From Planctomycetota bacterium (lineage in GTDB: Bacteria; Planctomycetota; PUPC01; DSUN01): DNA of 11,453 nucleotides. Both the position numbers and the translations under genes were made by a program. The stretch is taken from positions 1-11,453 of the forward strand of contig VGYW01000273.1 of NCBI GenBank assembly GCA_016872875.1, given 5' to 3'. The notes beneath the pieces are model-generated. The model was not told where the DNA came from. It saw only the letters and a program-made list of their open reading frames with translations, and made no database searches. This document shows positions 2,717 through 9,145 of this stretch, in pieces; position 1 is the first letter of the stretch; each line of letters opens with the position of its first letter.

Positions 2717-3001
2717 GTCATTCTCACATTCTTGAGAATGTGGGAATGACGCTGGGAGCGGGGCCAGCGGTGGGGTGGCGGGAGCGTCAGGCAGCCCGCC
2801 CGCGTGCAGAACTCAAGGAGCGCGGACGTTTCGGAAGGAGCGTCATTCTCACATTCGTGAGGATGTAGGAATCACGACCGAGGCGGAGGCCAGGGGTGCG
2901 GCGGCGCGGGGGGACCAGGCAGTGGCCCAGCGCGCGGATGCACGCCCTGTGGACTGCTCGGAGGGTTGTCCTTCTCACATTCTTGAGAATGTGAGAATGA
3001 C
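2717..3001 (+). repeat. Upstream part of palindrome array: three 34-bp palindromes, ~126-bp period
   Basis: Palindromes lie at 2717-2750, 2842-2875 and 2968-3001, with start-to-start distances of 125 and 126. The consensus is GTCATTCTCACATTCT, a 2-base centre (TG here), then AGAATGTGAGAATGAC. The first has one change (GTGGG in the right arm, wobble-compatible), the third has one (GTCC at the left end), and the middle copy is degenerate. The 91-92-base spacers resemble those downstream (shared GGAGGCCAGGGG-like blocks and TTTCGGAAGG/TTTGGGACGG-like ends) but have diverged more. No T-run follows, so these are not ordinary terminators, although the first lies 94 bases after the HAD stop. Apart from these units I see no gene in 2624-3117. 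Confidence 0.9.
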
Positions 3002-3117
3002 AACTCGGGCCCCGCTGTGGCTCTAGAGGCAGTGGCGCCGTTTTGGAAGGAATGGTAGAACGGTGGCGGCCCGGACCGGGTGTAGGTAGTGGAGGCAGGC
3101 AAGCAGGAGGCACAGCG

Positions 3118-3399
3118 ATGGAGAAGCCGGAGAAGGAGGAACGCCAGTTGGAGCGGATCATCAAGGGGTTCGCCAACCATAGGCGGATCGAGATGATGCG
3201 CCTTCTCCAACAACGCCCGGACCTCTCGTTGCTGGAAGTCTGCAAGTCTCTCCGGATCGGCATCAAGACCGGCTCGGAGCACATGCGGCGCCTCGCTCTC
3301 GCCGGACTGGTGGCAAAGAGGAACGACTGGCGCTGGGTCCGGCATCGGCTGACCCAGCGAGGGGTGGACATTCTGGCCTTCCTGAGGACGCTCGCATGA
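3118..3399 (+). CDS. Small winged-helix DNA-binding protein, ArsR-like
   Basis: The 93-residue product reads as one winged helix-turn-helix domain of ArsR type. It has HRRIEMMRLLQQRP (21-34, helix and turn), LSLLEVCKSL (37-46, first HTH helix), a recognition helix about 50-62 (KTGSEHMRRLALA), GLVAKRNDWRWVRHRLTQRG (63-82) as the beta wing, and a short closing helix. I see no metal-binding Cys pair; the single Cys is at position 42. ATG 3118 is chosen for AGGAGG (3105-3110) at 7-base spacing; an in-frame ATG at 3043 would add a Gly/Arg-rich stretch with no ribosome binding site. It is flanked on both sides by 34-bp palindromes, which are natural candidate targets, but no binding is shown. With so short a domain the family assignment is fair, not certain. 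Confidence 0.75.
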   Translation: MEKPEKEERQLERIIKGFANHRRIEMMRLLQQRPDLSLLEVCKSLRIGIKTGSEHMRRLALAGLVAKRNDWRWVRHRLTQRGVDILAFLRTLA

Positions 3400-3579
3400 T
3401 CAGCCCATCTCAGCACGGGCCGGCAGCTCGCGGCCGCGGGGAGCGGCCAAGCGGGCCCCCGGGTGCTGACGGGCGGGGCCGGCCGGGGCAGCGATCAACG
3501 AGGGGACGGCACACACCCGCGTCGAGCCGTGTCAGACAACGGCAGACCGATGCGGAACTGGAGGGGTGGGACCGATGGC

Positions 3580-4117
3580 CTCATTCTCACATTCTCAAGA
3601 ATGTGAGAATGACGAGCGGAGGAGCCACGGGCACGGGCGAGGGAGCCTGGGGCCGCGGCCCGCCTCTTGGTGCGGCGGCTCCGTCGCTCTTTGGGACGGC
3701 GCGGCTCATTCTCACATTCTCAAGAATGTGAGAATGACCAGCGCAGGGGCCAGGGGCGCGCGGGCGAGGGAGCTCGGGGCGGCGGCCCGCCTCTTGGTGC
3801 GGCGGCTCCGTCGCTCTTTGGGACGGCGCGGCTCATTCTCACATTCTCAAGAATGTGAGAATGACGAGCGGAGGGGCCAGGGGCGCGCGGGCGAGGGAGC
3901 CTGGGGCCGCGGCCCGCCTCTTGGTGCGGCGGCTCTGTCGCTCTTTGGGACGGCGCGGCTCATTCTCACATTCTCGAGAATGTGAGAATGACCAGCGCAG
4001 GGGCCAGGGGCGCGCGGGCGAGGGAGCCCGGGGCGGCGGCCCGCCTCTTGGTGCGGAGGCGATGCGGCTCTCTGGGAAGGGGTCTCATTCTCAGATTCTC
4101 AAGAATGTGAGAATGAC
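3580..4117 (+). repeat. Core tandem array: five 34-bp palindromes in ~126-bp units
   Basis: Palindromes lie at 3580-3613, 3705-3738, 3832-3865, 3959-3992 and 4084-4117 (steps of 125, 127, 127 and 125). The arms match the upstream copies except that the first base is C; the centre is CA, or CG at 3959 where the palindrome core is fully symmetric. One arm base differs in the last copy (CAGATTC). The spacers are 91-93 bases and nearly identical, containing GCCCGCCTCTTGGTGCGG and GTCGCTCTTTGGGACGG. Spacers 1 and 3 start GAGCGGAG and carry GGCCGCGG; spacers 2 and 4 start CAGCGCAG and carry GGCGGCGG, so the units alternate ABAB. Before the array, 3400-3579 shows no gene I can support. Confidence 0.95.
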
Positions 4118-4230
4118 GCAGGGGCGGGGGGACAGGGACGCGCCGGCAAGAGCGCCGGGCGGTCCGCGGCAGGCAACGGCCATGAGTGCGAGTGGGCATG
4201 CCCCATGGGTTGCCGGGAAGGGGCGTCGGT

Positions 4231-4386
4231 CTCATGCTCGTGGGGATATGGCAGCGATGACGGGAGGGCGGCGCGGGACTCGGGGGCACCGGGGCGGGTG
4301 GAGGTGGTGCCACGCGCAAGTGTGCGTGTGATGCGTGTTTCTCAGATGGGGCGTTGTTCTCACATTCTTGAGAATGTGAGAATGAC
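4231..4386 (+). repeat. Decayed palindrome and final intact palindrome upstream of secreted-protein gene
   Basis: An intact copy lies at 4353-4386 (centre TG, with two left-arm changes, both wobble-compatible in RNA). A strongly decayed copy can be seen at 4231-4261 (CTCAT at the left, GATGAC at the right). The unit period persists in other landmarks: GCAAGTGTGCGTGT at 4316 and GCAAGTGTGCATGT at 4442 are 126 bases apart, and a weaker related TGCGAGTGGGCATG starts at 4188, 128 bases before 4316. The array therefore seems to run nearly to the ribosome binding site of the next gene. I see no separate gene in 4118-4490. Confidence 0.8.
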
Positions 4387-6504: not shown

Positions 6505-6654
6505 ATCGCCTCAAAGCGAATCCCGACTTAAACACTCGGCTTTGCGTACAAGTCTTTGTAAGTCCAAGACATGAATATACATGCAATTCCTCGGCTCGGC
6601 CGGCACACCAGTTGCTACTGTCATCAACGAGTCGGGACTGAAGGAGAATGGTCT

Positions 6655-7257
6655 ATGCGGTCTTGTTGGTTCCAGGCGGGGGGAGGAGGTGGCGGCATCT
6701 GGGGCCGAGTTGCGCTGTGGCTCGCGGCGGCCCTTGCGCCGTTGGCGGCCCTGCCGGCAGCGCAGGCGTCCATCTTTCTGCCCGATCTGGGCGGCACGGT
6801 GCCGATGGGCGACGTGCTGAACAACCCACTTGGCGGCGGCTTGTACTCGCGGCCTCTGGTGATTCCCATCCTACTCGACGGCCTGCCGCCGGGCACACAA
6901 GTCATCGGCTCGATAAACCTGCGCGACTATGTGCTTCTGGACAGCACGCCCGGCGGCCCCTTGGGCGGCCTGGTGGAGAACTTTGCGAGCAACATGCGCG
7001 TGCAGATGTTCGGCACCGCGACCATGGCCGGCTGGCAGCGCGACATCACCATCCCGAACGTCCTCTCCCAGGTGCAATCCGGCCCCAGGCTCCCGGGCAC
7101 ACCACCCTCACCCAGCAGCCGTCGGGCAGGTGGGCCGTTGACAGCTTCTTCGACATCACTTACAGAATCGACTTCGTTGGAAGGGCCGGCGGCCAGTTCG
7201 CCGGGATGTCTGGCTCCACGACCTCCACCCAGCGCTTCGGGCCGGGCGAACGGGTGA
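6655..7257 (+). CDS. PEP-CTERM secreted protein, 5' part (frameshifted gene)
   Basis: This frame holds the start of a secreted protein that continues in another frame after about 7080-7100. The ATG at 6655 follows AAGGAG (6641-6646) at 8-base spacing. Residues 1-38 form a signal peptide: a short N region, a Gly run, a hydrophobic core LWLAAALAPLAALPAA, and probable cleavage after AQA. The mature part to about residue 145 (IFLPDLGG...NVLSQVQSG) looks normal. Beyond the shift point this frame becomes Pro/Ser-rich out-of-frame sequence to the stop at 7257, so a protein ending there would lack its sorting signal. An ATG at 6648 in the other frame is only one base from the ribosome binding site and is unlikely to be used. 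The function of the intact protein is unknown. Confidence 0.7.
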   Translation: MRSCWFQAGGGGGGIWGRVALWLAAALAPLAALPAAQASIFLPDLGGTVPMGDVLNNPLGGGLYSRPLVIPILLDGLPPGTQVIGSINLRDYVLLDSTPGGPLGGLVENFASNMRVQMFGTATMAGWQRDITIPNVLSQVQSGPRLPGTPPSPSSRRAGGPLTASSTSLTESTSLEGPAASSPGCLAPRPPPSASGRANG

Positions 7258-8102
7258 AGCCCGGAACCGACTGCTTCCGCACCGAATCGGGGGAGTTCCG
7301 CTTCGGCGTGGAAAACTCGATCCCGGCCGGCTTCTTCGAGCCGGGCTCCGACCCGTTCGCAGGGGTGGTGCGGCTCGGGGGGCGGCTGCTTGGCGACCCA
7401 CTCCTGGGCGACACCGACACAGTGGTGCGGCGGCCATCTGAGGCGCTCCTGCCTCACGAGGGGACCAGCGTGGACGTGCCCATCGAGCTCGTCGCCCTCA
7501 GCCTCGTCTCCGTCGCCCCCATCACCGTGACAGGCCCGTCGGGCGACAGCCAGTGGGACGTCAGCGTCATGCTCTCCCCGCTGCCCCCGCCCCCGGGGAG
7601 CATGACCATCATCCGCGGCACCAGCAGCGGCGGCACTTTCGATGCCACTTTCCCGGTCACTCCCCGGTTCACGTTCACGGAGGTCGGCAATCCTGGCAAC
7701 GTGAGGGTGCTCGACTACTCGGACCTCTACGGCCCCATCATGCTCGACCCTATTGTGCCCTGGGACTACTTCGTTGCGCCCGGGGACGGCCCGATGCCGC
7801 AGGCCTCCGCCGACAACGAGTTCTACGCCCAAACGGGCATCCTCTACACGAGCCTGGAGTTCGACCTTTCGCTGCGGAACGCTGCGGAGACGGCGGCGAT
7901 ACCGGAGCCAGCCACGGCGGTGCTCGTGGCGCTCGGCCTGCTCGCCGTGCTGCGCAGGCGGAGGCAGCGGCAGGGGCAGCCCTTGTGGCTGCCTCCGGGC
8001 GGCCGCCAGGGCCACCCCTACAAGTGTGTGACCCCGCGGACCCTTGCGACCCGGCGCGATCCCGGCCCCGCGCTAGGTTGGGGTCCGCGGGCCACCTCTT
8101 GA
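7098..8102 (+). CDS. PEP-CTERM secreted protein, 3' part with sorting signal (frameshifted gene)
   Basis: The reading frame one base back from the 5' part carries the rest of the protein, from about HTTLTQQPSGRWAVDSFFDI onward. There is no own start codon or ribosome binding site at the junction. Near the end lies a PEP-CTERM signal: IPEP (7899-7910), a hydrophobic stretch, then RRRRQRQ up to 7973. In known PEP-CTERM proteins this signal is the very C-terminus and is recognised by an exosortase that anchors or releases the protein at the envelope. Here about 42 further residues (Gly/Pro/Arg-rich) follow before the stop, which is unusual. Joined across the shift, the product would be about 480 residues. 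Residues beyond 7973 overlap an inverted repeat (8033-8091), so the tail is probably former non-coding sequence. Confidence 0.65.
   Translation, partial: HTTLTQQPSGRWAVDSFFDITYRIDFVGRAGGQFAGMSGSTTSTQRFGPGERVKPGTDCFRTESGEFRFGVENSIPAGFFEPGSDPFAGVVRLGGRLLGDPLLGDTDTVVRRPSEALLPHEGTSVDVPIELVALSLVSVAPITVTGPSGDSQWDVSVMLSPLPPPPGSMTIIRGTSSGGTFDATFPVTPRFTFTEVGNPGNVRVLDYSDLYGPIMLDPIVPWDYFVAPGDGPMPQASADNEFYAQTGILYTSLEFDLSLRNAAETAAIPEPATAVLVALGLLAVLRRRRQRQGQPLWLPPGGRQGHPYKCVTPRTLATRRDPGPALGWGPRATS
8033..8091 (+). repeat. 11-bp inverted repeat at the 3' end of the PEP-CTERM frame
   Basis: CCCGCGGACCC (8033-8043) is perfectly complementary to GGGTCCGCGGG (8081-8091), with 37 bases between them, and pairing can extend by GTG/CAC outside a small bulge. 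It lies in the unusual coding tail after the PEP-CTERM signal, which fits a 3' untranslated hairpin. No T-run follows. Confidence 0.6.
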
Positions 8103-8402: not shown

Positions 8403-8702
8403 ATGGCAGCTCTTCACCGCACACAGATACTGCTCGAACCCGAGCAACATCAAGCGCTTGCCCAGATGGCCCAGGACGCCGGCCGGAGCGTGTCTGACAT
8501 CGTTCGGGAGATTCTCCGCGAACGCCTGGCGCGGGAGACCAAGGAGGCGAAGCACCGAGAGCTCATGGAGACGCTTGCCAGGCTCAAGAAGTTCTGCGAC
8601 GAGGTGCAGGCGAAGCACGGGGTCATTGACTTCGACCCGGTGGAGGAGGTGAGAGAGGAGGCGGACCGCGAGATGGAGCGCGTGTTGAGGGGCGAAGGGT
8701 GA
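8403..8702 (+). CDS. Antitoxin with ribbon-helix-helix N-terminus (VapB-type)
   Basis: This 99-residue protein has an N-terminal ribbon-helix-helix pattern: a short strand (HRTQILLEP), then helix QHQALAQMAQDAG, turn RSVSD, and helix IVREILRERL (to about residue 42). It is followed by a charged, probably extended or helical C-terminus rich in Glu/Arg that would wrap around the toxin. It should bind DNA as a dimer and neutralise the PIN toxin encoded next. ATG 8403 has a strong purine ribosome binding site (AAAGGAGGGAGGAAG, about 8385-8399). The stop overlaps the toxin start by four bases, the usual antitoxin-first order with translational coupling. The near-consensus promoter with an internal palindrome fits autoregulation. 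Confidence 0.85.
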   Translation: MAALHRTQILLEPEQHQALAQMAQDAGRSVSDIVREILRERLARETKEAKHRELMETLARLKKFCDEVQAKHGVIDFDPVEEVREEADREMERVLRGEG

Positions 8703-9145
8703 GTGTCGTGGTGGACGCAAACCTTGTGACGGCGCTCCTCGTGCCTTTGCCCTATAGGCCGCAGGCAATGGCTAAACGTGCCGCCTGGAGCGAGGCACAG
8801 GAGACGCTGGTTGCCCCGATGCTGGTGGAATATGAGGTGTGCAGCGCCCTGTGGAGGCTGGCGACCGCCGGGTGGTTCCCAGTAGAGGCGCTGCCCGGGC
8901 TGCTCGTGGAGATGCGGCGGCTGGACATTCAGATGGCGCCCCCGACAGTGGCGCTTCATCAGGCGGCGTTCAAATGGGCGCAGCAGCTTGGCCGGAGCAA
9001 GACGTACGATGCACAGTACATGGCCCTTGCTGAGGAACTCCGAGCTGACCTCTGGACCTCCGACCTGAGGCTCTTCAACAGGGCGAAGCAGCTCGGCCTA
9101 TCCTGGGTAAACTGCATCCAGGAGCCCTCGTCGCAACCCTCCTGA
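8699..9145 (+). CDS. vapC: PIN-domain ribonuclease toxin, VapC family
   Basis: The 148-residue protein carries the acidic residues of a PIN nuclease: Asp6 in VVVDANLV, Glu46 in LVEYEVCSAL, Asp104 in TYDAQYMALAEEL and Asp122 in TSDLRLF. These bind the divalent metal ion used to cleave RNA; VapC proteins usually cut tRNA or rRNA, and this one's target is unknown. The YDAQYMALAEEL segment is typical of the VapC group. The start is GTG 8699, overlapping the antitoxin stop (GTGA), preceded by a GAGG-rich stretch in the antitoxin's end. The domain is complete, so the toxin is probably active. It converges with the flotillin gene on the other strand. Confidence 0.9.
   Translation: MSVVVDANLVTALLVPLPYRPQAMAKRAAWSEAQETLVAPMLVEYEVCSALWRLATAGWFPVEALPGLLVEMRRLDIQMAPPTVALHQAAFKWAQQLGRSKTYDAQYMALAEELRADLWTSDLRLFNRAKQLGLSWVNCIQEPSSQPS

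Follow-up and report, generated by a model that had tools for sequence, protein, structure and literature searches.

The window analysed here, a stretch of 11,453 nucleotides from a little-studied Planctomycetota bacterium, contains an array of nine 34-bp palindromes placed around a small gene on the forward strand (3118–3399, +), which encodes a 93-residue ArsR-like winged-helix regulator of the KGFANHRR family, with its predicted recognition helix at residues 49–61. The nine palindromes begin at the positions given in a previous sequence-only reading of the window (2717, 2842, 2968, 3580, 3705, 3832, 3959, 4084 and 4353), and the regulator gene does lie inside the array as that reading had it. 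Three palindromes, which like the other array features carry no strand assignment, lie upstream of the gene: palindrome 1 (2717–2750), a putative operator whose centre is 384.5 bp before the regulator start; palindrome 2 (2842–2875), the most altered of the nine, with a score of 27/34; and palindrome 3 (2968–3001), the nearest upstream site, with its centre 133.5 bp before the start codon. The 3' block begins with palindrome 4 (3580–3613), centred 197.5 bp after the gene end, and continues with palindromes 5 (3705–3738), 6 (3832–3865), 7 (3959–3992), 8 (4084–4117) and 9 (4353–4386), of which palindrome 7 has a fully symmetric core and scores 34/34, while palindromes 5, 6, 8 and 9 each match the 28-bp core. 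At up to three mismatches the core has eight matches in the window, a count that leaves out the more altered copy at 2842, compared with none in 200 dinucleotide shuffles. A decayed tenth copy, earlier placed at 4231, is also present, with its best score (17/34) at 4228–4255; in register with the other copies it is listed as D2 (4214–4269). The description of each site as two 16-base arms around a 2-base centre stands, and that of ATTCT occurring twice per arm at 8-base spacing is true of most arms and not of every one.

The proposed period of about 126 bp is found at most steps of the array, but not at all of them: the start-to-start distances are 125, 126, 612, 125, 127, 127, 125 and 269 bp, of which 612 and 269 are the larger gaps. 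At 10.5 bp per turn of DNA, 126 bp amounts to 12.0 turns, and spacings of 123–129 bp were also seen at five other places. A general spacing rule of about 126 bp was considered and rejected, because no neighbouring pair of sites at 120–132 bp was found in genomes G004, G005, G086 and G206. Within the 3' block the spacers repeat one another in tandem, and the stretch 3631–4080 is a tandem duplication (family D1) with a 127-bp unit that carries palindromes 5–7 and repeats that are 94–95% identical. The period is at least partly the product of tandem duplication. It might be supposed that nothing more is involved, and that replication slippage of a two-site locus simply left extra copies without function; the recent origin of the 3' repeat and the absence of the 126-bp spacing from those four genomes both favour this. 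The 5' spacers, however, now show little more resemblance than expected by chance (z 2.7 between the two and 0.0 to 3.0 to the 3' block, from 200 mononucleotide shuffles each), whereas the palindromes between them are recognisable and mostly intact. This suggests selection on the sites, though concerted copying or independent insertion would account for it as well, and plain slippage appears improbable to us as the whole account.

Other features of the window may be noted briefly. The kinase gene at 202–1224 has relatives at 85% and 67% identity, the one at 67% bearing a name that begins Planctomyce-. A 54-nt inverted repeat (1226–1279 and 1706–1759, 83% complementary, with GAATGTTGAATG-like units) flanks a four-helix-bundle gene (1283–1699) of the TIGR02436/23S rRNA intervening-sequence protein type, which lies between sugar-kinase and HAD-hydrolase genes, and the arrangement looks like a separate insertable unit. 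A secreted-protein-like gene seems to be split, its N-terminal part lying at 6571–7257 and its C-terminal IPEPATAVLVALGLLAVLRRRR end in another frame (6648–8102), which points either to a frameshift or to a mistake in the assembly around position 7085; the IPEPATAVLVALGLLAVLRRRR end is of the kind named PEP-CTERM. The overlapping ribbon-helix-helix (8403–8702) and PIN-domain (8699–9145) genes resemble an antitoxin-toxin pair.

The AlphaFold2 model of the regulator (pLDDT 93.6) has helices at residues 4–18, 21–32, 38–45 and 49–61, two strands, and a final helix at 80–92, which is the helix-helix-helix-helix-wing-helix arrangement of the ArsR/SmtB fold; the best Foldseek matches of the model are ArsR-family chains, and, among chains of solved structure, HlyU proteins are the closest in sequence (E 1.1e-11). 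The family alignment profile likewise matches ArsR-family chains, and precomputed Pfam assignments give PF01022 for many of the 119 relatives found by protein search at an E-value of 0.001 or better. The curated winged-helix and ArsR models nevertheless match the regulator only weakly, below their cut-offs (Pfam HTH_5, 18.5 bits against 22; NCBIfam HTH_metalloreg, 38.9 against 55). The conserved pair of cysteines that would serve metal or thiol sensing is absent, 44 of 91 family proteins having no cysteine and 40 of 91 only one, as in the window regulator, where it is at position 42. A cysteine at alignment column 89 is present in 36 proteins and is encoded by the palindrome itself: in L055, L064 and other genes with TTTTGC sites it matches the central TGC of the palindrome inside the gene, and a residue of the protein thus seems to be set by the DNA site.

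Among the 119 relatives, those that are named belong to Planctomycetota, to groups of Patescibacteria and to unassigned bacteria, with one relative at 68% identity. An alignment of 53 of the 119 was used to search a genome collection, and the best 80 of 93 confirmed loci were retained for analysis: 58 of these carry names of Patescibacteria groups, six are Planctomycetota, four are of Verrucomicrobia type, one each is from Omnitrophota and Deltaproteobacteria, and ten are without a phylum. The family is thus found mostly in Patescibacteria and is patchy in Planctomycetota. No relative of the regulator was found in viral contigs, and a viral origin is unsupported.

The palindrome accompanies the regulator gene throughout this family. 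After removal of identical proteins and of a divergent match without a site (L102), 91 family genes were examined. An upstream site is present in 84 of them and a 3' site in 77, with 70 having both; 88 have a site at the 3' end or in the near-downstream region. Eight of the 91 (the window and loci fetched through their palindromes) did not come from the protein search alone, and were set aside. The other 83, which protein similarity alone had brought in, include 76 with a site 15–150 bp upstream, 75 with one overlapping the last codons, 68 with both, and 82 with a 3' or near-downstream site; an upstream interval of the same width, displaced by 400–1200 bp, catches only 0 to 3. In the 578,081 bases of the best 80 of the 93 loci there are 180 sites scoring at least 27, against none in the reversed sequence. 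The 3' site is centred at one fixed offset, 15.5 bp before the gene end, in 75 of 77 cases (73 of 75 among the 83 genes), so that the palindrome spells out the last residues of the regulator. In 12 of the 14 genes that lack an intragenic site, the window gene included, a site lies no more than 200 bp downstream, the exceptions being L073 and one gene of L130. In the window, the segment 3370–3397 over the last codons scores 22, against 7–10 at six neighbouring offsets, and this is a degraded palindrome at the very offset where the relatives have an intact one; the protein ending ILAFLRTLA has been kept. The nearest upstream site of the window is also the farthest from its gene among the 84 nearest upstream sites, whose median distance is 33.5 bp. 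With nine sites the window array is the largest among the 91 genes, the next highest number being five and the usual one two (60 of 91).

The sequence of the site is further linked to that of the protein. Mutual information was calculated for 81 of the 84 upstream sites, three having been dropped at 90% protein identity, and the highest values were obtained for protein columns 89, 50, 51, 48, 90, 49, 58 and 54. Columns 85–93 are trivially coupled to the site, because they are encoded by the 3' palindrome, but columns 48–58 fall at the recognition helix predicted by AlphaFold2 (49–61); column 82 is also high (z 17.8), and lies outside both the helix and the palindrome-encoded end. Once whole-protein distance had been corrected for, the top six single columns were 50, 51, 54, 49, 58 and 48. 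Together these six helix columns give a partial r of 0.57, compared with a best value of 0.245 for 500 entropy-matched column sets outside the helix; they were chosen from the same data as the partial correlation, the ranking of single columns giving exactly these six. The site sequence varies with six residues of the predicted helix and hardly with the rest of the protein. Residue 50 is lysine in 47 of 50 proteins whose sites have a TTCT centre and in only one of 34 with a TTTT centre, the other 33 having other residues; where the centre is TTTTGC, residue 50 is mostly glutamate. The window combines Lys-50 with a TTCT centre.

These results lead us to regard it as probable that the ArsR-like protein encoded within the array binds the palindromes; it would be autoregulated, and its sites would have multiplied around its own gene. 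Of the possibilities originally raised, a multi-site operator is the best supported, given that in more than one phylum the palindrome occurs together with this regulator family, and that its sequence changes in step with the recognition helix. Two features of the window count against it: the nearest upstream site is unusually far from the start codon, and no sigma-70-like promoter was found between 2600 and 4550. Dimers of the regulator would bind the sites, and upstream occupancy would repress the regulator's own transcription; the site at the 3' end would strengthen repression, either by allowing the DNA to loop over the gene or by acting as a barrier to elongation. For the window it may be supposed that the intragenic site decayed in a G+C-rich background while the copies outside the gene multiplied, partly by the 127-bp tandem duplication, which would account for the regulator gene now lying inside a nine-site array. 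Many dimers could bind near one another there; the array could also make autoregulation sharper and serve to store the protein or titrate it. As no conserved pair of sensor residues was seen, the signal for this apparently sensorless regulator may be its own level, rather than a ligand.

The sites are not confined to the surroundings of the regulator gene. Nine regulator-bearing genomes contain from 8 to 43 sites each at up to two mismatches (three in the case of G007), with one control match overall. Among 392 Planctomycetota genomes, searched at up to one mismatch, G086 has 29 sites, G206 has 10 and G001 has 8, and these three are the only ones with a strong regulator match, G001 being the centre of the search and present in the set by design. 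Seven others have one or two sites, mostly poor palindromes, the backwards control giving one each in two genomes; in G108, whose regulator match is weak (6.7e-13), there is no site. No additional regulator came from another 397 genomes, all of one class. In 192 Patescibacteria genomes, seven have the regulator at an E-value of 1e-15, and at up to one mismatch five of the seven have sites and two have none; 14 of the 185 without the regulator also carry sites, most of them one or two. G476 (loci L234–L238, 0.6 Mb) carries 11 sites at up to one mismatch and no family protein at an E-value of 0.001, reflecting either an incomplete assembly or a different reader; this genome, the two regulator-bearing ones without sites and G108 count against the operator reading. 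The sequence-only reading had held that a common REP-like repeat, dispersed in this genome without association with this locus or a regulator, would count against its interpretation: the dispersed copies do exist in related genomes, but the association with the regulator is not lost.

The dispersed sites are largely intergenic (26 of 30 in G086, 9 of 11 in G206 and 36 of 44 in G008, against some 16–20% of random positions). That they are promoter operators was considered and rejected: in these three genomes, and unlike classical operators, they are distributed over convergent, divergent and co-directional gaps in much the same way as intergenic positions drawn at random, the gap classes being approximate because the script-made gene calls missed short regulator genes. 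Nor was a coherent regulon found: out of 47 candidates in G001 and G008, 20 genes adjoining sites in G008 were compared with Pfam, and the 17 that had domains (including GAPDH, malic enzyme, glutamine synthetase, riboflavin synthase and Obg) pointed to no common pathway. A MITE was rejected too, as the flanks of the sites are mostly unrelated, apart from local duplicates and three sites in G086 that share about 100 bp at 74–77% identity. Comparison of the Patescibacteria genomes G004, G005 and G008 gave 175 reciprocal gene pairs; 48 have a site touching both members, 35 a site at one member only and 92 none, the shared placement being inflated because the compared stretches were centred on sites. 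Alignments show the place of the site kept while both arms have changed type at genes for a hydrate dehydratase (in three genomes), Obg and malic enzyme; a fourth case, inositol phosphatase (Inositol_P), gave no alignment as a shared site. It is tempting, if rather unlikely to be correct, to see in this a chromosome-wide addressing system, in which a sensorless, phylum-crossing winged-helix protein reads long palindromes that stay at the same intergenic positions as species diverge, their two arms changing type along with the paralogue reading them, the window array being its nucleation or storage centre.

Another reading is that the palindrome is a REP-like dispersed repeat and the winged-helix gene its companion; RAYT transposase genes are flanked by two REPs, as described in a passage of PMC2817692. 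The regulator genes too are flanked on both sides by the palindrome, copies are dispersed through the nine regulator-bearing genomes in the numbers given above, and these copies are intergenic without promoter bias and have mostly unrelated flanks. The companion would, however, be a protein with a one-domain ArsR fold and no features of a transposase; the covariation of site and recognition helix is also against it, as are the positions conserved between species (48 of 175 pairs in both against 35 in one, with the inflation mentioned) and the three alignable cases in which the place is kept while both arms change type. We consider such a repeat quite unlikely. Less probable still is a partition or chromosome-organising array, in which the protein would nucleate on the palindromes and then spread along or bridge the DNA like the winged-helix AspA of plasmid pNOB8. 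According to PMC5120986, AspA recognises a palindrome of 23 bp that precedes the gene encoding it, and spreads over 200 bp. AspA chains are indeed found by the family profile (E 5e-5 to 7e-5) and share the fold (4rs8), and a dense array with promoter-neutral intergenic sites would suit this role; but no ParA or ParB domain was detected in the nine window proteins scanned, HlyU, CadC and ArsR/SmtB chains match the profile better than AspA does, and the relatives usually have two sites per gene.

The palindromes could in principle act in RNA, as a chain of hairpins serving as attenuators, stabilisers or processing sites. Three of the nine copies, when folded, formed a stem of 14–15 pairs closed by a loop of 4 bases, with energies of −18.6 to −20.9 kcal/mol, but any such palindrome would fold so; and although mismatches in the 3' intragenic sites lean towards sense-strand G-T (86, against 23 A-C), this excess can follow from conserved coding of the right half of the site. 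Upstream sites have no such lean (49 G-T, 42 A-C and 75 others), as expected for DNA recognition, no Rfam match was obtained, and no terminator-like site was found between 2600 and 4550, in agreement with the original remark that these are not standard terminators. A hairpin by itself gives no reason to expect that site and recognition helix should covary. RNA hairpins, though raised at the outset, are not favoured and we give them very little credence.

If the palindromes are indeed the operators of an autoregulated ArsR-like protein, then the regulator family, its site and its specificity residues can all be read from sequence alone, and the pairing of Lys-50 with TTCT and mostly of Glu-50 with TTTTGC amounts to a code that is open to test with purified proteins. 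Little is known about how Patescibacteria regulate their genes, and testing it is difficult. A site inside the stop-codon region of the regulator's own gene, and sites that keep their place while changing their type, also bear on the rewiring of regulatory networks. A surface search of the open-access literature found no account of sites for the KGFANHRR family, which is weak evidence of absence.

The window system fits only part of the definitions of HlyU-type ArsR regulators, of REP/RAYT and of AspA. With HlyU, a member of ArsR/SmtB, the window regulator shares the ArsR-type winged-helix fold (AlphaFold2, Foldseek) and aligned Lys, Asn, Arg-Arg, Ser and His residues, and changes to some of these abolished DNA binding by HlyU, according to a portion of PMC4330345. 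HlyU binds a 17-bp imperfect palindrome, whereas here the palindrome, whose binding is putative, is of 28–34 bp and has four ATTCT/AGAAT elements; unlike HlyU, the family has one site inside the end of the regulator's own gene, and no conserved pair of cysteines. The likeness to REP/RAYT lies in short, dispersed, intergenic palindromes and in a companion gene flanked by two of them, as seen in the relatives; here, however, the companion is a predicted DNA-binding regulator, no tyrosine transposase was found in Pfam, profile and fold searches, the consensus used here has no GT(A/G)G head, and positions are conserved between species. AspA-ParBA of pNOB8 likewise pairs a winged-helix protein with a palindrome lying ahead of the gene that encodes it, but it differs in that no ParA or ParB domain accompanies the present regulator (nine window proteins scanned), and in the fixed second site at the 3' end of the gene. 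The closest parallel in method is the study of covariation between GntR family regulators and their sites, which, as set out in part of PMC4494728, likewise used mutual information between protein and site columns; the method and the logic are the same, but here the family is a different one, and the pair of sites flanks the regulator's own gene.
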